Shown: positions 5,487 to 49,123 of the stretch, one piece after another
How positions within the stretch are numbered: position 1 is the stretch's first letter
Layout of the letters: every line of letters begins with the position of its first letter
Assembly (NCBI GenBank): GCA_030611085.1
Contig: JAUWQI010000006.1
Coordinates: 1-52,781 of the forward strand
Reading direction: 5' to 3'
DNA from: Dehalococcoidia bacterium
GTDB taxonomy: Bacteria; Chloroflexota; Dehalococcoidia; GIF9; AB-539-J10
DNA: 52,781 bases
Program-made: the position numbers and the translations under genes
The notes under the pieces: generated by a model
What the model saw: only the letters and a program-made list of their open reading frames with translations
What the model was told of the DNA's origin: nothing
Database searches by the model: none

Positions 5487-5550
5487 TGTCATTCTGAGCG
5501 AAGCGAAGAATCTCTCCACTCAGGACAGGCTCCGCGACCGAAGGATTTCT
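5487..5550. repeat. Dispersed repeat A (TGTCATTCTGAGCGAAGCGA type)
   Basis: Starts TGTCATTCTGAGCGAAGCGA and continues through CAGGACAGGCTCCGCG. Relatives occur at 9736-9869, 14331-14398 and 15185-15252, and in frame within proA and mfd. Confidence 0.7.
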
Positions 5551-5585: not shown

Positions 5586-5637
5586 TGTAGTTGCCCAATT
5601 TATTGGGCGATTCTGCCTGATGAATCAGGCAACTACA
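5586..5637. repeat. Dispersed repeat B, double hairpin
   Basis: Ends TGTAGTT and AACTACA are inverted repeats. Inside lie two palindromes, GCCCAATTTATTGGGC and GCCTGATGAATCAGGC, so the single strand can fold as a three-stem junction. Full copies lie at 11075, 12084 and 32644, and a half copy inside tsaD at 48485. Confidence 0.8.
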
Positions 5638-9735: not shown

Positions 9736-9869
9736 GTCATTCTGAGCCCTTCGCTTTTTGTCATTCTGCGCGTAGCGAAGAATCTCACCGCTCAGGACAG
9801 GCTCCGCGAAGAATCCAGGCCATTCGCTTGCCTCTTCGCTTCGCTCAGAGCTTCGGCTCAGGGTGACAA
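9736..9869. repeat. Dispersed repeat A, compound copy
   Basis: Contains two TGTCATTCTG starts, AGCGAAGAATCTC, CAGGACAGGCTCCGCG and a closing GCTCAGGGTGACA inverted arm. It fills the gap between the HDAC-family and M20 genes. Confidence 0.7.
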
Positions 9870-11038: not shown

Positions 11039-11367
11039 CTTACGCCTCCCGATGATATCTCACCCTCCAATTTTTGTAGTTGTCTGATTCATCAGGCTTA
11101 GCCCAATAAATTGGGCAACTACATTTCTATACAGCTCTATACAGCTCTATACAGCCTCATTTTTTGTCTTCCCTTGCCCCTGCCAACTGCCAACTATTAA
11201 CCGCGTTTACAAGGTTCATAAAATTCATAAGGTTCAAAGGTTTGTAAAGTTTCACCCCCACCTTCAAACTTTCTAACCTGCAACCTTCTAACCTTCCAAC
11301 CTCTGTCTTTAACCTCCTAACTTGCCAGCCTTTTACCCTTTCTGCTATGCTAAAGATGGAGGCTGTT
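11039..11367. other. Repeat-rich intergenic region before hicBA
   Basis: Holds a repeat B copy, three tandem ATACAGCTCT-like units at 11129-11156, and a stretch of AACCTTCTAACCTTCC-like low-complexity sequence to about 11340. No gene is supported; the minus-strand frame covering it is an antisense shadow of hicBA. Confidence 0.5.
11075..11123. repeat. Dispersed repeat B copy
   Basis: TGTAGTTGTCTGATTCATCA with GCCCAATAAATTGGGC and a closing CAACTACA. The two inner palindromes are in the opposite order to the copy at 5586. Confidence 0.8.
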
Positions 11368-12083: not shown

Positions 12084-12132
12084 TGTAGTTGCCTGATTCA
12101 TCAGGCTTAGCCCAATAAATTGGGCAACTACA
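12084..12132. repeat. Dispersed repeat B copy
   Basis: TGTAGTTGCCTGATTCATCA, GCCCAATAAATTGGGC and closing CAACTACA. It lies 57 bases before the truncated sirtuin frame. Confidence 0.8.
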
Positions 12133-14330: not shown

Positions 14331-14398
14331 GTGTCATTCTGAGGGAGCATAACGACCGAAGAATCTCTTGAGACCCTTCGCTTCGCTCAGAGTGACAC
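14331..14398. repeat. Dispersed repeat A, palindromic 68-bp copy
   Basis: Ends GTGTCATTCTGAG and CTCAGAGTGACAC are near-perfect inverted repeats, with CGAAGAATCTC and GAGACCCTTCGCTTCGC inside. It looks like a small non-coding mobile or REP-like element. Confidence 0.75.
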
Positions 14399-15184: not shown

Positions 15185-15252
15185 TGTCATTCCGAATGAA
15201 CTGAAGCGGAATGAAGAATCTCAGAGATTCTTCGCTGCGCTCAGAATGACAG
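15185..15252. repeat. Dispersed repeat A copy
   Basis: TGTCATTCCGAATGA at one end and TCAGAATGACA at the other, with an internal GAAGAATCTCAGAGATTCTT palindrome. Confidence 0.7.
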
Positions 15253-31338: not shown

Positions 31339-32627
31339 GGGCGAATCTGCCCACTACCAAAGATAATCCACTTGTAGCTGGTGAGCTCTTTAAGAGCCAT
31401 AGGCCCGCGAGCGTGGAATTTCTGGGTGCTTATGCCAAGCTCGGCGCCTAAGCCAAATTGCGCACCATCGGTAAATCTGGTGCTGGCATTGGCATAAACA
31501 CAGGCGGCATCCACTTCATTGAGAAACCTCATCGCTGCTGAATAATCTTCGGTAACAATAGCTTCAGAATGCCCCGAGCCATAGGTCTCAATATGTTCCA
31601 GAGCTTCATCTAAAGAATCAACCACCTTGATAGCTGCTTTTAGCGAAAGATATTCCTTTCCCCAATCTTCGTCTTCAGCCGGGACTAAGAGATTCTTCAC
31701 TTCGTTCAGAATGACATTGTTGGCTTTAAGGATAGCCAGTGCTCTCTCATCGCAATGCATTTCCACCCCAGCCTTTGCCCACTCTTTGGCAATGGAAGGT
31801 AGGTAATTGGGGGCAACCTGACTATGAACCAGAAGGCAATCCAGTGCATTGCACACAGTGGGACGCTGAACCTTGGCATTATAAGCGATGGCTACAGCTT
31901 TATTAAGGTCAGCAGATTTATCCACATAGGTGTGGCAAACACCTATCCCACCGGTAACCACTGGCATAGCAGCATTTTCCGAGACAAGCTTTATCAACCC
32001 AGCGCCACCACGGGGAATTATCAAGTCAATTATCCCTTTCATCCTAAGCATACGATTGACTAAAACCCGCTCTGTAGATTCAATAAATTGAATTGCCCCT
32101 TGAGGCACTCCAGCTCGATAACAGGCTTCTTGAGCTACTTTGGCTAATGCAGTATTGGAATTTACAGCCTCTCTGCCACCACGAAGGACGACGGCATTGC
32201 CTGATTTAAGGCACAAAGATGATATATCTATGGTAACATTGGGGCGACTCTCGTATATGGCTCCAATCACCCCTAAAGGGACTCGCTTCTTGCCTATCTG
32301 CAAACCATTGGGCAGAGTCTTCATCTCAATTATCTCGCCCACAGGGTCGGGCAAGACAGCTACTGTTCTTGTGTCCTGTGACATACTTTCCAGGCGGTCT
32401 TCTGATAACATAAGCCTATCCAGCATAGCTTCGTTCATCCCTGAAGCTTTAGCCTCGCCATAGTCAACTTTATTGGCAGCTAAAATTTCATCCTGTTTAG
32501 TAACAAGAGCATCAGCGACATTGAGCAAAGCCTTATTCTTGATTTCCGTAGAAAGGAAAGCCAGCTTCTTCGAAGCTGCCTTGGCAGCCTTTCCTTTTTC
32601 TTCCAGTTCTTTTATAGCTGATTTCAT
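31335..32627 (-). CDS. proA: Gamma-glutamyl phosphate reductase
   Basis: A 430-residue NADPH-dependent reductase of proline synthesis. The catalytic Cys lies in QRPTVCNALDCLLVHS; the substrate loop is RGGREAVNSN. Residues about 305-313 (VILNEVKNLL) come from dispersed repeat A, between ALAILKANN and EDEDWGKEYL, making the protein slightly longer than usual. AAGGAG lies seven bases before the ATG. ProB is upstream on the same strand but separated by an R-M cassette. Confidence 0.94.
   Translation of the reverse strand: MKSAIKELEEKGKAAKAASKKLAFLSTEIKNKALLNVADALVTKQDEILAANKVDYGEAKASGMNEAMLDRLMLSEDRLESMSQDTRTVAVLPDPVGEIIEMKTLPNGLQIGKKRVPLGVIGAIYESRPNVTIDISSLCLKSGNAVVLRGGREAVNSNTALAKVAQEACYRAGVPQGAIQFIESTERVLVNRMLRMKGIIDLIIPRGGAGLIKLVSENAAMPVVTGGIGVCHTYVDKSADLNKAVAIAYNAKVQRPTVCNALDCLLVHSQVAPNYLPSIAKEWAKAGVEMHCDERALAILKANNVILNEVKNLLVPAEDEDWGKEYLSLKAAIKVVDSLDEALEHIETYGSGHSEAIVTEDYSAAMRFLNEVDAACVYANASTRFTDGAQFGLGAELGISTQKFHARGPMALKELTSYKWIIFGSGQIRP
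31689..31714. repeat. Dispersed repeat A inside proA
   Basis: On the minus strand it reads GTCATTCTGAACGAAGTGAA then GAATCT, like the intergenic copies at 5487 and 14331. Confidence 0.8.
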
Positions 32628-32643: not shown

Positions 32644-32696
32644 TGTGGTTGCCTGATTTATCAGGCATAATTCGCCCAATAAATTGGGCAACTACA
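32644..32696. repeat. Dispersed repeat B copy between proA and the methyltransferase gene
   Basis: TGTGGTTGCCTGATTTATCA, GCCCAATAAATTGGGC and closing CAACTACA. It touches the methyltransferase stop codon. Confidence 0.8.
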
Positions 32697-33668
32697 TTAC
32701 TTTTCAGCCTTAGATTGCCCTTCATATACACCCATATCTGCTCTGCCTTCTTTAACTATAAAATCGAATAAAGTGGGGATATTCTGGACATAGCTAACCC
32801 TTCTAATTCTTCTCTCCGCTAACTTAACATATTCCTCGTTTATGTCATAACCTACATAGTGTCGTTTTGTTTTTATCGCCGCTAAACCCGCTTGCCCACT
32901 CCCCATAAAGGGGTCTAAAACAACCTCTCCTTCATAAGTATAGAGCTGGATAAGCCTATATGGTAACTCTACAGGGAAAGGGGCAGGATGCCCGATGCTC
33001 CTTGCCTGCTCCGCCGGGAATGTCCATACACTTTTAGTAAATTCAAGGAATTCCTCTCTAGATATAGTGTTATGCTTATCTGGGTACTTCCTGTGGCTAA
33101 ATGTCCCTTTAGAAAAAACCAGGATATATTCGTGAATATCCCTCAGTGTAGGATTAGCTGCAGAGAGCCAACTTCCCCAAGCTGTGGAAGGGCTAGAACT
33201 TGAAGCCTTGTTCCAGATAATCTCTCCTCGCATCAGAAAACCTAATTCAAGCATATCTTCGATAATAAAAGTGTGAAGGGGGATATATGGTTTTCTCCCC
33301 AAGTTGGCAATATTTATGCAAGCTCTGCCCCCTGGCACAAGCACTCTGTAAACCTCTCGCCATACCCTTTTGAGGAATTCTTTGTATCCTTCCAGCGTCA
33401 AATCTTCATCATACTCTTTCCCCACGTTGTAAGGTGGAGAGGTAACCATCAAGTGAACGCTATTATCAGGCAATTCCGCCATTTTCTCACTTGATCTACA
33501 AAATATCTTATCTAGAAATTCAGGAGGAATGAGATTCTCTTCATATTTGACCTTTTCTTCTTTAGGTAAGCCTTCGTAAAGCTTGCTAGCATAGAATCGA
33601 GTGGAATCGTGATTTATCCGACCTGGCGAACCAAATGAACTCGTCTTAGTGCCCCTGCTCTTATTCAT
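32697..33668 (-). CDS. DNA methyltransferase, beta class, probably N4-cytosine
   Basis: A 323-residue site-specific methyltransferase. Motif IV is TSPPYNVGKEY, and motif I (DPFMGSGQAGLAAI) comes later, so the order is that of the beta class. TSPPY suits N4-cytosine, though N6-adenine remains possible. GGAGGGAGGA precedes the ATG. It overlaps the endonuclease gene by four bases, forming a type II R-M pair. Confidence 0.88.
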   Translation of the reverse strand: MNKSRGTKTSSFGSPGRINHDSTRFYASKLYEGLPKEEKVKYEENLIPPEFLDKIFCRSSEKMAELPDNSVHLMVTSPPYNVGKEYDEDLTLEGYKEFLKRVWREVYRVLVPGGRACINIANLGRKPYIPLHTFIIEDMLELGFLMRGEIIWNKASSSSPSTAWGSWLSAANPTLRDIHEYILVFSKGTFSHRKYPDKHNTISREEFLEFTKSVWTFPAEQARSIGHPAPFPVELPYRLIQLYTYEGEVVLDPFMGSGQAGLAAIKTKRHYVGYDINEEYVKLAERRIRRVSYVQNIPTLFDFIVKEGRADMGVYEGQSKAEK

Positions 33669-35904: not shown

Positions 35905-37332
35905 TTATTTAGGTCTGTTATCCACCACCTTGACTGTCTTATAGCCACCTGCTTGGGTAGGAATAGTGCCAGCAGCAACCAGCTCCAGCTCTATTGGAAC
36001 ATCGAGTCTAGTTTCCAGAATAGTTTTTACCTCTTTCTCATACTCCAGGTCTGGCAACTTGCGCAATGTTTCCATCCTTAATTTTAGCTTGTCCATATCC
36101 CAACTATCTAAGATTAGCTGATACACCAAAGTGGCATCGGGAATGTCGCCAACGACCACCTCAACATCCCAGGGTAGCAGTTCCTTTCCCTTCACCTTAA
36201 ATATGTCCTTCAATCTGCCTGGACACAACTTCGACCACCTTTTGTTTGTTCTGCCACACTCGCAAATTTCGGTGCTATAAGAATTCTCAAATACATCTTC
36301 CATACCAAAACGGATAAGTGGTGCTGCATGGTTAAAGAATGTAGTAAACACAAGCTCTCCCCTCTCACCCATAGAACACCTTTTACTAGAGCCTGGTTTA
36401 ACCACTTCGATAGCATAAAGGTCTTCACTCTCATGCAAGTCTTCTCTTCCATGCTCACTCGCTGGCTGACACCCATAGAGCACCACGCCATCGTTAGAAC
36501 TCATTATGTTTACAAAGTATTTGGGCTTCTTAAAAAGTGCCAGCAATTCCCGGGCCCCCTTAGGTGTAAGGGGCATGCCACCCGGGAGTGCCACATCGTA
36601 GGGCGCTTCCTCTCCCATCTTTTCAAATTGCCGCCCCAATGTCATCAGAAATTCAGGTGTCATCATAGTGCATAGAGGAGTATAAAACTTCCCAAGCTCG
36701 ATTTGAGTGCGAGCGCTCGCTTCTGGGTCAGGCAAGTAGCCAAATATCTCCTCTGCATAATAAAAAAGGCCAATATTCTCTGCCACCCTCTCCATCCAGT
36801 CTGGAACTATCTGTCCTTTAGCTTTGGGGAAAAAATCTATAAAAGCGCCTCCTGGTCTACAACCCCCAGACCAAAACTCCCTGCACAGAGTTTCCCCGAT
36901 AACTTTAAAGTCATCTGCTGTCCATAAGTAGCTAGTGGGGTTGCCGCTGGTTCCAGTGGATCTGTAGAGTCTGGGAACATCCGGCATTAATTCTTTCACT
37001 GCTCTGGAGCCGAAGGGCGGGAATTCCGCCTCATCTTTGCGTTGCTGGTCTTTTCTCCATACCGGCAATTTCTCCAGGTCATCATATCCCTTTATTTCAT
37101 AAGGGTTTACCCCAGCTCCATCCCAAAGCTTCTTATAGAACTTAGATTTCTCATAAGCCCATCTCACAATATGACGCAGGTGCTTATCCCTAAGTTGTTC
37201 TAACTTCTCCCTGGGAGCACCTTCAATCGGATTATAGAATTTTTCATTAGCCTTCGGCGGCAAATTTGCCCTTAGAGAGCCTTCTTCCTCAAGTTCCTTA
37301 ATATTTTGCCTTGCTTCATCAATAGTAGCCAT
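35905..37332 (-). CDS. PaaK-like acyl/aryl-CoA ligase (second gene of pair)
   Basis: A 475-residue adenylate-forming enzyme of the phenylacetate-CoA ligase group: WAYEKSKFYKKLWDGAGV opening, YRSTGTSGNPTSYLW (ATP loop), and RGELVFTTFFNHAAPLIRFG. The late CPGRLKDIFKVKGKELLPWD segment carries the hinge. It activates a carboxylic acid with ATP and CoA; the acid is unknown. The start at 37332 is chosen over 37362 because AAGGAGGAAGG precedes it. It lies 34 bases after its paralogue. Confidence 0.85.
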   Translation of the reverse strand: MATIDEARQNIKELEEEGSLRANLPPKANEKFYNPIEGAPREKLEQLRDKHLRHIVRWAYEKSKFYKKLWDGAGVNPYEIKGYDDLEKLPVWRKDQQRKDEAEFPPFGSRAVKELMPDVPRLYRSTGTSGNPTSYLWTADDFKVIGETLCREFWSGGCRPGGAFIDFFPKAKGQIVPDWMERVAENIGLFYYAEEIFGYLPDPEASARTQIELGKFYTPLCTMMTPEFLMTLGRQFEKMGEEAPYDVALPGGMPLTPKGARELLALFKKPKYFVNIMSSNDGVVLYGCQPASEHGREDLHESEDLYAIEVVKPGSSKRCSMGERGELVFTTFFNHAAPLIRFGMEDVFENSYSTEICECGRTNKRWSKLCPGRLKDIFKVKGKELLPWDVEVVVGDIPDATLVYQLILDSWDMDKLKLRMETLRKLPDLEYEKEVKTILETRLDVPIELELVAAGTIPTQAGGYKTVKVVDNRPK

Positions 37333-37366: not shown

Positions 37367-38800
37367 TTAAGCCCTTTTAGGGCGTTTATCCACTACTTTC
37401 ACCGACTTATATCCCCCGGGAGGTGGAGGGAGAGCTCCTTCTGGAACCCAAGTTGCTTCCACGGGAACGCCAAGTTCACTCTCCAGAATAGCCTTCGCTT
37501 CCCTTTCATATTCAGGGTTGGGTAACTCTCTAGAGGTTTCTATCTTCACTTTTAGTTTATCCATATCCCAACCATCCAAAAATATCTGATACATCAATGT
37601 TGTATCAGGTATCTCCCCTATAACTAACTCGACATCCCAGGGCATCAGTTCTTTGCTTCTTACCTTAAAAACATCCTTCAACCTTCCAGGACAAGGTCTG
37701 AGCCATCTCAGGCTTGTCCTGCCACATTCACAGGGCTCAGTGGTAGATAGATTTTCAAATACATCTTCTGTGGAGAATCGAACAAGAGGTAAAACATGGT
37801 TGTAGAAAACAGTGACGACAAGCTCGCCTCTCTCTCCTTCAGCAGCCTTCTCCCCTGTCCCTGGTTTAACCACCTCATATACATATAAGTCCTCGCTTTC
37901 GTGCAAATAATTTAGTCCCTTCTGAGCTGAGAAAGGACACTCAAAATCCACACCACCCTCAATTGAACCGATTAAATTCGGGAATCCCTTCGGCTTTTTA
38001 TACAAGGAGCGCAATTCTTGACGCAATCTTGACGAAAGGGGCATCCCTCCAGGTAGGATTACATCAAAGGGTGGCTCCTTACCCATCTTCTCAAACTGCC
38101 GTCCCAATGCCATCAGAAACTCTGGAGTGGAAAAGGCGCACAAAGGTTCGTAAACTTCTCCCAACTTTATTTGAAAAGTGGCGCTAACCTCAGGGTCAAG
38201 CAGGTAGCCAGCCACCTCTTCATCATAGTAAACAACCCCTATCTTTCTTGCGCTTGATTCAATTATTTCCGGGGCCATTTGACCCCTGGCTGAGGTAGCA
38301 AATCCTATGTAGGCTCCCCCTGCTCTAAAGCCAGCAGCATACATCCACCTGGCACGAGACTCTGCCATTACCTCTAAATCTTCGGGAATCCAAAGAAGCA
38401 TAGTAGGAAATCCAGAGGTTCCTGTTGACCTATATATTCGAGGGACATAAGGGATTAGTTCCTTCACTGCCCTGGAACCAAAGGGGGAATTTTCCGCTTC
38501 ATCCTTCCGCTGCTGCTCTTTGTTCCAAACTGGCAACTTGCCCAAGTCACCGTACCCCTTGATATCACCGGGCTTCACCCCTGCCTCATCCCATAGCTTG
38601 CGGTAGAATGGAGAATACTTGTAAGCCCAACTTATTATATGGCGAAGATGCTTATCTCTGAGCTCCTCTATCCTCTCTCGTGGTGCACATTCGATAGAAT
38701 TGTAGTATTCCGCTTCAACTCTGGGAGGAACATTAGTTCTCACTGAACCTTCCACCTCAAGCTGTGCCAAATATTCCCTTACCTCATCAATAGCAGCCAT
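37367..38800 (-). CDS. PaaK-like acyl/aryl-CoA ligase (first gene of pair)
   Basis: A 477-residue paralogue of the following gene, similar along the whole length (RHIISWAYKYSPFYRKLWDE, YRSTGTSGFPTMLLW, CPGRLKDVFKVRSKELMPWD). GGAGGGACA precedes the ATG. The two could have different acid substrates or form a heteromer, as in some tandem ligase pairs. Divergent from mfd across 126 bases. The substrate cannot be read from the sequence. Confidence 0.85.
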   Translation of the reverse strand: MAAIDEVREYLAQLEVEGSVRTNVPPRVEAEYYNSIECAPRERIEELRDKHLRHIISWAYKYSPFYRKLWDEAGVKPGDIKGYGDLGKLPVWNKEQQRKDEAENSPFGSRAVKELIPYVPRIYRSTGTSGFPTMLLWIPEDLEVMAESRARWMYAAGFRAGGAYIGFATSARGQMAPEIIESSARKIGVVYYDEEVAGYLLDPEVSATFQIKLGEVYEPLCAFSTPEFLMALGRQFEKMGKEPPFDVILPGGMPLSSRLRQELRSLYKKPKGFPNLIGSIEGGVDFECPFSAQKGLNYLHESEDLYVYEVVKPGTGEKAAEGERGELVVTVFYNHVLPLVRFSTEDVFENLSTTEPCECGRTSLRWLRPCPGRLKDVFKVRSKELMPWDVELVIGEIPDTTLMYQIFLDGWDMDKLKVKIETSRELPNPEYEREAKAILESELGVPVEATWVPEGALPPPPGGYKSVKVVDKRPKRA

Positions 38801-38926: not shown

Positions 38927-41900
38927 ATGGAGCTTTCCGGTTTACTTTCCTTGCTTAGAAAAGTCCCCTTTTACAAACAACTGGTGCGGCAAATATCCAC
39001 AGCCAAAGGTGAACACAGTATATCAGTGCTCGATGCCGCCAGGCCTTACTTTATAGCTGCTCTCCATAAAGAGCTTAGTTTACCTTTGATTGTGGTAACC
39101 ACCCAACCTGAGAATGCCAGGACGCTCTATGAGCAACTTCAAGCATGGTGTTCTCCTTCATCCAATTTGCACCGTTTCCCGGAAGTCGGTTCCCCCCCTT
39201 CCACCAACACCATGTCGGAAAGATTACAGGTGCTAGCTTCTTTAGCCCTTTATAAGCCCTCCGCCCCTTGTCATTCTGAGGGAAGCGAAGAATCTAGAGG
39301 CCCTATGGTGGGGATGAACCCTGCTACTACGTTTGGGGTGACAGCTAAACGACCTCCTTTGATAGTAACCTCAGCCTTAGCAGCTATAATTAAAACCGCT
39401 CCTCAAGGAGATTTTGCCTCTGCTTGCCATACTTTAAATCAAGGCATGCATATTGACCCCATAGAACTACTACATAAATGGCAAAGTATCGGCTATGAAA
39501 TGGAGGATGCTGTTGAGGTGCCTGGGCAAGTAAGCAAACGAGGTGGCATTATTGATGTTTTTCCTCCTTGTAGCTCATCACCAGCTCGAATAGAGTTTTT
39601 TGGCAACCAGATTGAGAGCATAAGGCTTTTCGACCCAGAGAGCCAACGCTCCACCACGCCAATACATTCAATAACCATCACTCCAGCTAAAGAGCTTCTC
39701 AACAATGGAAGTATCCTTGACTACCTGGGTGATAATGCTCTTCTTATTCTTGATGACCCAGAGGAAATCAAAGTTGCCATCCAGAGGCTTTATGCCCAAA
39801 GCCAGGAGCTGGAGCAAGGCGAATCACCTCAGTGCTCTCCTCCTCCTTATCTTGCCTGGGAGAAATTAGAGCCCAAAATAAGGGTAAGGCATCGTCTGAT
39901 GTTGAAATCCACCTCGGAGACCCTTCGCTTCGCCCAGGGTGACAAAGGAGACACTCAGAGTGACATAATTGAGAGCAATGGAAGGTTGCTTCGCACCGCT
40001 CGCAATGACATTGCTTTGCCTTTCTCCCCTTGTCAAAGTTATGGAGGCAAATTGGAACGATTCCTCAAGGCAGCCAGGCAAATGCTCCAACAAAGACAAT
40101 CCGTGCTCGTAGTTAGCCATCAAGCAAATCGCCTGGCTGAGCTTCTTCAGGAAGAAGGTATTTATCCCGCATTACAAATGGAACAAGCTCCCCCTCCTGG
40201 TTCAGTCACTGTGCTTCGAGGTTCACTGGCTGAAGGTTGGGAGTTACCAAATATTTTAAATTTAATCACCGATGCTGAGCTCTTTGGCTTTGTGAAGCAA
40301 GCACGCCCAGGTAGAAAAACGCCAGTGCGAACTAGCTTGCTCCTTCCTCAGTCAATGCCAGGAGATTATGTAGTCCATGTTGACCACGGCATTGCCAGAT
40401 TTAATGGTTTAACACGAATGTCCACCGATGGAATTGAGCAGGAATACCTTGTTTTAGAGTACGCTGGCAGCGACAGGCTTTATGTACCCACAGAGCAAAT
40501 AGAGCGCGTCAGTCGCTATATTGGAAGTGGTGACCAGGCACCAATTTTGAGTCGACTGGGAACGCAGGAATGGCAAAGAACAAAGGAACGGGTTAGACAA
40601 TCAGTGGTTGATATGGCTCAGGACTTGCTTGAGCTCTACGCTGCCAGGGAGGTAGCTCCAGGCTTTGCCTTCTCTCCTGACACATTATGGCAGCAGGAAT
40701 TGGAAGCATCATTCCCTTATATGGAAACGCCAGACCAGCTTGAAGCAATTACGGCCGTCAAAGAGGATATGGGAAAAAATAAGCCCATGGACCGGCTCAT
40801 CTGTGGAGATGTGGGCTATGGCAAAACTGAGGTGGCTTTGCGCGCTGCCTTCAAAGCAGTGATGGACAACAAGCAAGTAGCTATACTGGCACCCACCACT
40901 GTGCTGGCTCAGCAACATTTCACTACCTTCACCGAGAGATTGCAAGCTTTTCCTCTAAGAGTGGAAATACTGAGCCGCTTTTGTTCCTCAGAAAAAGAAG
41001 AGAAAATTCGTGAAAGCTTAGCTAATGGCACCACAGATATATGCATCGGCACTCATCGCTTATTGCAAAAAGACATCGTATTCAAAGACCTGGGACTGGT
41101 GGTAATTGATGAAGAGCAACAATTCGGCGTGGCGCAAAAGGAGAGGCTTAAACAAGTGAGAAAAGAGGTAGATACTATCGCCCTGAGCGCCACCCCCATC
41201 CCACGCACCCTCCATATGTCCTTAACCGGAATCAGGGATATGAGCATCATGGAAACACCACCCGAAGAACGCTTATCCATTAAGACCTCTGTTGGTGTTT
41301 ATGATGATACCCTGGTTAGGCAGGCGGTATTGCGTGAGTTGGAGAGAAATGGTCAGGTCTTTTTTGTTCATAATCGAGTTCAGAGCATCGTTTTAGCCGC
41401 CAGCAAGTTACAGGCTCTGGTGCCCGAAGCCAGAATCGCCATTGCTCATGGGCAAATGCCCGAGGAAGAACTAGAAAAAGTGATGGCAGATTTTATCGCT
41501 GGCACTTATGATGTCTTGGTCACCACCACTATTATCCAGTTGGGCTTGGATATGCCCAATGTCAACACGCTAATTATTGACCAGGCTGACAAATTTGGTT
41601 TAGCTCAGCTTTATCAGTTGAGAGGCAGAATAGGCCGTGGCATCAACCAGGCTTATGCTTATTTCCTATATGATAAAGGCAAGCAGCTAACTGCCCAAGC
41701 CCATAAAAGGCTTAAGACTATCTTCGAGGCTACAGAGTTGGGTGCTGGGTTTGGTATTGCTATGAAAGATTTGGAGATTCGTGGCGCGGGGAATCTTCTG
41801 GGTGTTAAGCAGAGTGGGCATATAGTTGCTATAGGTTTTGACCTTTATTGCCAGATGATGGCTGAGGCAGTAGAGGAGGTCAAAAAAGTCAGGAGTCAAA

Positions 41901-46340: not shown

Positions 46341-48110
46341 GTGCTAAAAAGACATAAGAGTGCCATTAATAGCAAACTAGTTTCACCGCTGAGGTATTTA
46401 CGCGCCCATAGATTCACCTCTGGCATCATTCTTAGCATTATTGTTGGGCTCGGTGGTGGGCTCGGTGCTGTTATCTTCAGGTGGCTCATCAAGACATTTC
46501 ACCAGCTCTTTTTTACCGGAATGAGTGATTCTTTAACCCTTTTAGGGCATTACTCCGTCATTTTAGCGCCTGTAGTGGGTGGACTCATCGTTGGTTGCAT
46601 CATTTACTTCACTAAAACTGGAGAGACGAAAGGCCATGGCGTCCCTGAGGTAATGGAAGCAGTATGGCGAGAAGGAGGACGCATCCGTCCCAGAGTAGCA
46701 GCAATTAAGGTGCTAACTTCATCAATATGCCTTGGCAGTGGAGGTTCTGCAGGAAGAGAAGGACCAATCGTCCAGATTGGCTCCAGCATCGGCTCAACTG
46801 TAGCACAATGGTTTCGCTTGCCAGAGGATTGGGTAAAAACTCTGGTTGCCTGTGGAACAGCAGCAGGCATTTCAGCCACATTTAATGCCCCTATAGGCGG
46901 TATATTTTTTGCTTTGGAAGTTATTTTAGGCCGGGTTGTAAACCCACGCCTGGGCTTTGTTGTCCTGAGTTCAGTGGTAGCCGACCTTATCGCTCACCTT
47001 TTCCTGGGCGATTTCCGAACCTTCAATATGCCGGTGGAATATACTCTAAATAGCTACAGCGAATTACCCTTATATATCTTATTAGGCGTATTTTGTGCTC
47101 TTGTCGCTGCTCTTTTCATTCGTTCACTGTACAAAATGGAAGACGGTTTTAATGCCTTAAAACTTCCCGAATACTTAAAACCAGCTTTGGGTGGCATTGC
47201 CGTTGGGCTCATCGGTTTCTACAATCCTTATCTTTTTGGAGTTGGCTATGATGGAATAGACCAGGTTCTATTGGGTAATATTGGCCTTCTCTCCTTGATA
47301 GCATTGCTATTTCTGAAAATATTAGCTACTTCATTCACTCTAGGAAGCGGGGGTAGTGGCGGCATTTTTGCCCCCAGTTTATTTATGGGAGCTATGTTTG
47401 GTGGGCTCTTCGGAGAAATAGCTCACGGTTTCCTGCCCGGCGTCGTCGCCCCTGCAGGTGCTTACGCACTGGTAGGTATGGCGGCAGTCTTTGCTGGAGC
47501 AACACAGGCACCAATAACATCTTTCATCATCCTTTTTGAGATGACCCAGGATTACGCTATCATCCTGCCCTTACTGCTGGCAGTAGTAACTAGCACTTTG
47601 CTTTCTCGCCGACTTAGCCGCGAAACCATATACACCCTTAAATTAGCACGGCGCGGCATAAGTACACAACGCCCCGAAGAGGCTGCTTTCTTGAGAAGTA
47701 TTACTGTCGGTGAGACGATGACACGCAATTTCCCCAGCGTTTCACCCCAAATGAGCGTTCCTAAGCTAATAGACAAGCTGAACAAAACTGGCCATCATGG
47801 ACTCCCTGTGGTGGATGAAAATGGTCACCTTTATGGCATGGTTACCTTGACCGATGTTGAATCCAGAATAACAGGAGACATTAAGAAGCTTACTGTAGCT
47901 GATATTGCTACTAAAAGACTGACTACAGCCTATCCCGACCAGCTTTTGAGTGAACTGGTTGAGCATTTGGGCATGGGAACCAGTGAAATTCCACGAATTC
48001 CTGTCGTCAGCAGGCGAGACCCTACCAAGCTCCTGGGAGTGCTGCGCCGCCAGGATATTGTTAAGGGTTACGCCAGAGCAGTGTCAGGAATACACGGAAA
48101 CGAAGTATGA
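46341..48110 (+). CDS. ClC family chloride channel/antiporter with two CBS domains
   Basis: A 589-residue membrane protein. Selectivity-filter motifs: KGHGVPEV (98-103), [11 protein letters not shown] with the gating Glu140, and [12 protein letters not shown] near 337. Glu140 suggests a Cl-/H+ exchanger or related anion antiporter. Two CBS domains occupy about 450-585 ([23 protein letters not shown]) and may sense nucleotides. The start is a GTG with no clear ribosome-binding site. Its stop overlaps tsaD as ATGA. Confidence 0.92.
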
Positions 48111-49123
48111 AAATCTTAGGCATTGAAACCTCCTGTGATGAAACTGCCGCCGCAGTGGTTGCCGATGGCAGCAAAATTATCTCCAATATCATAGCTTCAC
48201 AGATAGACATTCATGCTCGCTACGGCGGCATAGTGCCAGAAATTGCCTCAAGACAGCACCTGCTCACCATTATCCCTGTGGTGCAAAAGGCAATGTCTGA
48301 AGCCAATGCCGGTTGGCAAGATATAGATGGCATTGCCATAACTTACGGCCCAGGCTTGGCAGGCTCACTGCTCGTGGGGGTTAATGTAGCCAAGGCAATC
48401 GCCCTGGCTACAGGATTGCCTATTACCGGGGTTAACCATCTCGAAGGGCATATCTATGCCAACTGGTTATCTTCTCCATCCAATTGTAGTTGCCCAATTC
48501 ATTGGGCGAATGGCGCGGGCAAGGTGAGATTCCCCTGCCTCTGCCTTATCATTTCCGGTGGGCACAGCGACTTGATAGTAATGAAAGGACATGGGCAATT
48601 TGAGAAGCTAGGACGAACTCGTGATGATGCCGCCGGAGAGGCATTTGACAAAGCGGCTCGAATTTTGGGCTTAGGCTATCCCGGAGGCCCAGCCGTGGAA
48701 CAAGCAGCTACCACCGGAACCCCTTGCATTCCTCTTCCCCGAGCCTGGCTCAAAGGAAGCCACGATTTCAGCTTCAGCGGCTTAAAGACAGCCCTCTGGC
48801 ATCTCGCCCAAAAGGAACAAATTTCGGCAACCGACGCTGCCGCAAGCTTCCAGCTAGCAGTAGTAGATGTCCTGGTTGGTAAAACAATCGAGGCAGCAAA
48901 GGAATTACAGGTAAAACAAATTTTGCTCAGTGGTGGTGTAGCATCAAATAAGTTTTTAACAGAGCGTTTCCTGAACTCCTCGCCTATCCCCGTCCTCATT
49001 CCCCCTCCCGACTTATGCACTGATAATGCCGCTATGGTCGCCGCTTGTGGCTACTACCATTTTCAAGCTGGTAACGCAAGCAGCTATGACTTAGATGTAG
49101 TTCCCAGCCTCAGCCTGGGCTAG
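48107..49123 (+). CDS. tsaD: tRNA N6-threonylcarbamoyladenosine transferase subunit
   Basis: A 338-residue TsaD, part of the complex that makes t6A37 in tRNAs. [12 protein letters not shown] opens the ASKHA fold; the metal histidines are His111 and His115 in [31 protein letters not shown] follows. Residues about 124-141 ([18 protein letters not shown]) are extra relative to the family and are encoded by a half copy of repeat B, a few residues after the metal site. Overlap with the ClC gene implies coupling. Confidence 0.94.
48485..48507. repeat. Half of repeat B inside tsaD
   Basis: TGTAGTTGCCCAATTCATTG then GGC: the left half of the double-hairpin element at 5586, in frame. Confidence 0.8.

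Follow-up and report, generated by a model that had tools for sequence, protein, structure and literature searches.

A probable REPIN with unlike paired hairpins in a Dehalococcoidia genome, and REP-flanked RAYT genes in other carriers of the repeat

Known REP Systems and the Present Repeat

REPINs, GTAG heterodimers, REPtrons and the patchy horizontal spread of tnpA-REP genes have already been published, and the repeat described here can be set against four such reports (PMC3116915, PMC3733652, PMC8266576, PMC6006769). In Pseudomonas fluorescens SBW25, the unit consists of two inverted REPs and is linked to specific RAYTs, with singlets taken as remnants (Bertels and Rainey 2011, PMC3116915); the present repeat is alike in these respects. 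Two folds have been proposed for the SBW25 unit, a stable hairpin and a less stable "clover," the latter as the form that a RAYT would recognize (PMC3116915). SBW25 REPINs are described as pairing one REP type around a spacer that itself forms a hairpin (PMC3116915); by contrast, the stems of the present repeat differ in nearly every dimer, and its spacer is short and unconserved.

The GTAG REP heterodimers (Di Nocera, De Gregorio and Rocco 2013, PMC3733652) share with the present repeat the GTAG tag, a short perfect stem and the head-to-head arrangement of dimers; in both, heterodimers are common and RAYT genes are flanked by REPs, forming a REPtron. That report leaves the preference for heterodimers without an obvious explanation, proposing an escape from hairpin-cleaving enzymes, and describes homodimers as common in some families (PMC3733652), but in the present repeat they are almost absent. 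Group 3 Marinomonas REP-Mb has a perfect stem two bases from GTAG and a TTTA loop (PMC8266576, PMC6006769), for which the counterpart here is GTAG-TT-GCCCAA(TTTA)TTGGGC; the REP-Mb stem is 5 bp long, as against 7 in the present repeat. The E. coli BIME/REPtron, with its Y and Z2 REPs, likewise pairs unlike REPs in inverted orientation around a RAYT, but the E. coli stems are reported to include a required bulge (PMC8266576, PMC6006769), and the stems considered here have none.

The present repeat is very probably a REPIN: two head-to-head GTAG-tagged REP hairpins that would spread together as a small, non-autonomous element. Observed here are the anatomy of paired REPs, at least 36 copies, covariation in the hairpins, presence or absence at orthologous sites, REP-flanked RAYTs in other genomes and near-strict heterotypy. 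It is probably a new family within a known class of repeats, one in which the heterotypy rule is unusually clean.

Anatomy of the Repeat

The window, that is, the whole stretch of 52,781 nucleotides analyzed (Dehalococcoidia bacterium, contig JAUWQI010000006.1), holds four dimers, each composed of one CCAAT and one CTGAT hairpin, just as a first-pass annotation had stated. Copy 1 (5586..5637, + strand, 52 bp) reads TGTAGTT, the hairpin GCCCAAT-TT-ATTGGGC, the spacer GATTCT, the hairpin GCCTGAT-GA-ATCAGGC and finally AACTACA, a pair of head-to-head GTAG REPs with the CCAAT half first. Half A (5586..5608, + strand) is TGTAG, TT and the first of these hairpins; half B (5615..5637, − strand), when read on the − strand, is TGTAG, TT and the hairpin GCCTGAT-TC-ATCAGGC. 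As in REPINs, a GTAG tag lies beside a short palindrome, and two such halves are paired in inverted orientation with their tags facing outward. The remaining copies lie on the − strand, and the earlier statement that copy 1 is oriented opposite to them holds. Copy 2 (11075..11123, 49 bp) has one arm substitution and a 3-base spacer, copy 3 (12084..12132, 49 bp) has exact arms and a 3-base spacer, and copy 4 (32644..32696, 53 bp), also with one arm substitution, directly adjoins the stop codon of the ORF at 32697-33668 (− strand). The arm substitutions of copies 2 and 4 give TGTAGTTGTC and TGTGGTTGCC, and the spacers of the window dimers are 3, 6 or 7 bases long.

The arrangement of outer arms enclosing two palindromes, as first annotated, is confirmed as to layout and needs one correction: the 10-base arms share GCC/GGC with the feet of the hairpins, so that a junction would have 7 + 7 + 7 pairs. 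With at most one mismatch, the 10-base arm has 18 matches in the window, far more than chance would give: shuffles average 2.81, and none of 100 scores as high. Folded as single-stranded DNA, copy 1 has a z-score of −5.80.

A single CCAAT REP half (48485..48507, + strand) lies inside the tsaD reading frame at 48107-49123; it is in frame, and the residues it encodes fall within an insertion of 14 residues by comparison with the solved TsaD structure 6nak. A short tandem of about three TCTATACAGC units (11127-11156) stands directly beside copy 2. Elsewhere in the window, a further dispersed repeat, TGTCATTCTGAGCGAAGCGAAGAATCTC, occurs in both orientations at 5487-5515, 9756-9786, 14370-14397, 15223-15251, 31689-31716, 39269-39295 and 39917-39944, and adjacent ORFs contain two 230-base direct repeats (35996-36225 and 37464-37693) that are 71% identical.

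Copies in the Genome and Beyond

The genome to which the window belongs (G000) is a 1.16-Mb assembly of 30 contigs, 83% complete. It carries 23 dimers with exact 10-base arms and 11 further dimers with one to three mismatches and a 6-base spacer; together with the window copies at 11075 and 32644, the total is at least 36 dimers in 1.16 Mb. The copies are not confined to the window, an outcome that the first-pass annotation had named as refuting its reading, and are many and dispersed within the genome, as REPINs are.

The exact-arm pattern is present in 13 of 149 genomes when the own genome is included, that is, in 12 of its 148 relatives. Among the 111 stretches listed, the repeat is found in metagenome-assembled genomes (MAGs) that bear at least 11 different labels of phylum rank, though such labels can be in error; the labels among the matches listed are Dehalococcoidia/Chloroflexi, Nitrospinota, Nitrospirae, Zixibacteria, Schekmanbacteria and Omnitrophota, as well as Elusimicrobia, Firestonebacteria, Doudnabacteria, WOR-3 and Deltaproteobacteria. 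Eleven loci were judged not to be this repeat and excluded before counting (L092, L108, L133, L138, L173, L179, L180, L190, L197, L201 and L205). Arm matches labelled Nocardia, Aquibacillus, Rufibacter and others are not copies of it. In the viral collection IMG/VR, 11 contigs were matched (L203-L213): ten have a dimer, one of these with a changed right stem, and L205 has none. A search of the open-licence literature, covering text outside figures and supplements, found no description of the repeat in Dehalococcoidia.

Hairpins Conserved as Structure, Arms as Sequence

The first-pass annotation saw in the repeat a conserved three-stem structure, and its two inner stems stand up to analysis. 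Across 96 distinct copies, both sides have changed in 8 pairs and 49 cells of the inner hairpins, compared with 2.9 and 3.4 in shuffles, with none of 500 shuffles reaching as high; 98.9% of their cells are paired, compared with 95.5% in shuffles. Both inner hairpins are therefore conserved with compensatory changes, as is characteristic of REPINs. This alignment includes 96 of the 104 reference copies (omitted are L016, L123, L131, L132, L150, L162, L181 and L202), and in 94 of the 96 the outer arms were fixed by the search itself and are uninformative about the outer stem.

The outer stem was assessed with a mismatch-tolerant search of 13 genomes, which returned 121 matches, 66 of them imperfect. 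At the six GTAGTT pairs, the 66 imperfect copies contain no compensated change, 12 one-sided changes and one double non-pairing change; compensated cells, 6 in number, occur only at the base outside the GTAG tag, where 34 cells are one-sided and 4 are double changes that do not pair. In these 66 copies, the outer stem of a conserved three-way DNA junction is thus not upheld by compensatory change, and this part of the annotated structure is not supported. The arms are thus conserved as sequence, as expected for a GTAG tag plus foot, while the outer stem seems to result incidentally from the inverted arrangement of the halves.

Nor does the junction as such emerge from predicted folding. The minimum-energy DNA folds of the 104 copies have two hairpins in 46 cases, one imperfect hairpin in 57 and three hairpins in one; the imposed junction averages −11.3 kcal/mol against −14.6 kcal/mol for the best fold, being 3.3 kcal/mol less stable. 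When all dimer families are taken together, one hairpin is the minimum-energy form of 72 of 168 distinct dimers. The predicted fold also depends on the strand: the copy at 32644 forms one long hairpin on the + strand and two hairpins on the other.

RAYT Genes Flanked by the Repeat

A transposase of the RAYT type probably spreads the repeat. The search for a TnpA-REP (Y1/HUH) gene in the window's own genome, recommended at the time of annotation, detected no Y1 transposase or RAYT there (5 of 14 control genomes were positive), and absence from an 83%-complete assembly is not proof of absence. A cognate RAYT shares a genome with the repeat in G026, G021 and six other genomes. G026, a member of the same family with 11 exact-arm copies, contains a RAYT frame whose ATG is 29 bases from a dimer of this repeat; the contig end terminates the frame ahead of the presumed catalytic tyrosine, and REPs are seen on one side, the other having been lost with the contig end. 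The G021 RAYT, 71% identical to that of G026, has a REP half on one side, a full dimer on the other and an interrupted frame.

Of 24 genomes picked solely for carrying the arms, six have a RAYT with an E-value of 3e-29 or better, and along almost the whole of the G026 fragment the identities to it are 77, 61, 57, 51, 50 and 44%; the other 18 have no RAYT at this level, which incomplete MAGs may explain in part. Among the 149 genomes, the same level is attained by two, G026 itself and G021, the next best E-value being 2.9e-15, and among the 12 other exact-arm carriers a close RAYT was found in G026 alone. In five of the six genomes, L247 (B_CHL_03), L248 (Zixibacteria), L250, L251 and L252, the RAYT has REPs to either side; these five and G021 are REPtrons, in which a RAYT is flanked by its REPs. 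The stems beside the RAYT are GCCCAAT with GCCTGAT for the 77% identical enzyme, GCCCAAT and GCCCGAT for the 61 and 50% identical ones, GCCCAT and GCCGAT for the 51% one, and GGTCGAGC and GCAAAGT for the 44% one. Together with the anatomy and the compensatory changes in the hairpins, the flanked RAYT genes support the recognition site for a REP-associated transposase that the first-pass annotation had suggested.

The assignment of these proteins to the Y1/HUH class is backed by PF01797, which scores over its cut-off in 3 of 3 proteins scanned, and an HIH motif is visible in the RAYT translation. As to RAYT rather than IS200 TnpA, the best NCBIfam model is NF047646, REP-associated tyrosine transposase, at 68.4, 51.6 and 52.6 bits, below its cut-off of 80; the best PDB match is E. 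coli TnpA-REP (4er8) at a modest E-value of 1.2e-5, on a scale on which an unrelated V-ATPase chain reaches 0.003. We take the tyrosine in EYIQNNP of the L247 RAYT to be the candidate catalytic residue; YYEHV is not supported as its site. When any Y1 transposase is set against any strict head-to-head dimer, the two lie within 600 bp at 8 of 51 places, with dimers on both sides at 5; these 51 places include IS200-like enzymes and fragments, and the test with the specific RAYT subfamily is the stronger one.

In L249, an Elusimicrobia MAG, GTAG-tagged REP halves (1614-1636 and 1786-1808) lie inside the RAYT match, and recall the REPs inserted within tnpA-REP genes that are mentioned in PMC6006769. 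At L047, L050, L053, L056 and L069, further RAYT-like genes of related genomes are bordered on either side by heterotypic dimers whose stems are different again.

A Locus With and Without the Enzyme

In G026 and in G021, the RAYT has a radical-SAM gene on one side and an AMMECR1 gene on the other. The window's own genome has two dimers and no RAYT between these neighbors, and the first dimer in G026 and in this genome starts at the corresponding position where the radical-SAM gene ends, providing its stop codon. In G003, G017, G014, G051 and G037, the radical-SAM and AMMECR1 genes are direct neighbors, with neither a dimer nor a RAYT; G028 has REP halves at the locus, and G005 and G027 have other repeats, in each case without a RAYT. 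We infer that the window's lineage once had a RAYT at this locus and then lost it. The family also illustrates that such a spreading repeat can be maintained where its enzyme is absent from the genome or has not been assembled. A putative remnant of the RAYT leader in the own genome matches at 19 of 24 bases, a score reached by 2 of 5000 spacers after shuffling and by none of 5000 pieces of the window; the candidate is weak, the same stretch being found also beside other dimers on that contig, and was set aside.

Mobility and the Length of the Unit

Filled and empty orthologous sites are distinguished in the comparisons of L151 with L156, L019 with L047 and G026 with G003. At the site of the window copy at 32644, the neighbors on both sides are recognizable in G006 (L280) and the dimer is missing there; most other relatives keep just one of the two neighbors. 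None of the filled/empty comparisons made gave base-exact ends at the empty site. In G014, 13 of 23 matches at dispersed places have one spacer sequence in common, which suggests recent spread of the repeat in that genome.

What moves may extend beyond the 52-bp core, because conserved, asymmetric sequence adjoins the core (pooled, 126 distinct flanks) and does so around another stem pair as well. In many Dehalococcoidia copies, GGCTGTTTAAAAA adjoins the CCAAT half and AAAATTTGGGGGTGAAA... the opposite half; the first flank count registered many elements on each of the two strands and serves here as a qualitative guide. These flanks would also fit a different origin of mobility, in which the core is the middle of a miniature element of ~100 bp with conserved ends of its own, moved by another transposase while the REPIN core rides inside. 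The framing of a different REPIN core (TGTAGTGCGAGGCT...) by the same left flank and the longer inverted extension of some Nitrospinota copies (AGGGCATCTCTAAAAAT) argue in its favor, but we consider such an element unlikely: the flanks vary between lineages while the core and its GTAG tag are constant, many copies in the own genome are devoid of them, and so are the dimers beside the RAYTs of G026 and G021.

Poorer still are the prospects of a functional RNA or transcription element, e.g., a terminator or an mRNA-end hairpin, kept in place rather than mobile. All four window dimers do lie between predicted ORFs, one of them abutting a stop codon, and each half is a stable hairpin, yet an Rfam search of the window gave no match at the gathering score (a tRNA search of the window also gave nothing), the dimer is often missing at orthologous sites, one half is inside tsaD, and the repeat is linked to RAYT. 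Roles of the nucleoid-protein or gyrase type are known for E. coli REPs, but a binding site of this sort is most improbable here, as nothing in the present data points to one.

Beside the presumed REPIN, a second, heterotypic REPIN family (TGTAGTGCGAGGCT...CGACCC...) occurs at L025:423, L053:1272, L125:5040, L182:7648 and L192:587; in L053, REPINs of this family are located on both sides of a RAYT. At several places it has the left flank GAGGCTGTTTAAAAA in common with the present repeat, as if different stem pairs had been set in one flank frame. The Nitrospinota copies L095, L136, L148, L151, L156 and L164 carry a conserved extension, ATTTTTAGAGATGCCC, which in L156 is found on both sides as an inverted repeat.

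Unlike Stems as a Rule

The two stems differ in 167 of the 168 distinct head-to-head dimers of the fetched loci, later additions included, the sole equal-stem dimer being in L270. They differ in each of the 23 exact-arm copies in G000, in all 93 distinct copies with two clean hairpins (17 of the 110 distinct matches were set aside for want of these) and, in the loci before later additions, in all 151 distinct head-to-head dimers of any sequence. As controls, a planted equal-stem dimer was detected by the dimer scan, and no dimer turned up in 613 kb of shuffled loci, an amount short of half the 1.34 Mb that the scan covered. The loci were chosen mostly by their arms, a choice that gives no advantage to unequal stems. 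The copies are related, and 167 of 168 do not amount to independent trials; a stronger argument is the variety of stem pairs, which fall into 53 types, one of them equal.

Artificial versions with equal stems are predicted to form one hairpin in 102 of 102 cases, with a mean of −27.3 kcal/mol. We infer from this energy model that the stems stay different because equal ones would zip into one 24-bp perfect hairpin. As the proposed mechanism runs, each half of a REPIN in single-stranded DNA would offer a GTAG tag and a hairpin to the RAYT, a HUH single-tyrosine transposase, which would nick and rejoin the strand, setting a copy elsewhere; with equal stems, the 24-bp perfect hairpin would hide both tagged hairpins from the RAYT and expose the site to hairpin-cleaving nucleases. 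A bolder idea, which we put forward tentatively and with rather more doubt than conviction, is that heterotypy is a selected design rule: the middles would differ so that a single strand opens into a two-hairpin clover readable by the RAYT, with stem pairs varying freely, tag and foot constant and stems almost never equal, with one flank frame carrying different pairs, and with the family and its RAYT subfamily having crossed many phyla.

The preference for heterodimers has been called unexplained in print (PMC3733652), and stem-pair types, a simple energy argument and cognate RAYTs in several lineages are now available. Of the 38 types with two 7-base stems, 27 have a difference at position 4 and 25 at position 5, counted from the foot, the commonest sites, and 5 have one at position 1, the rarest.
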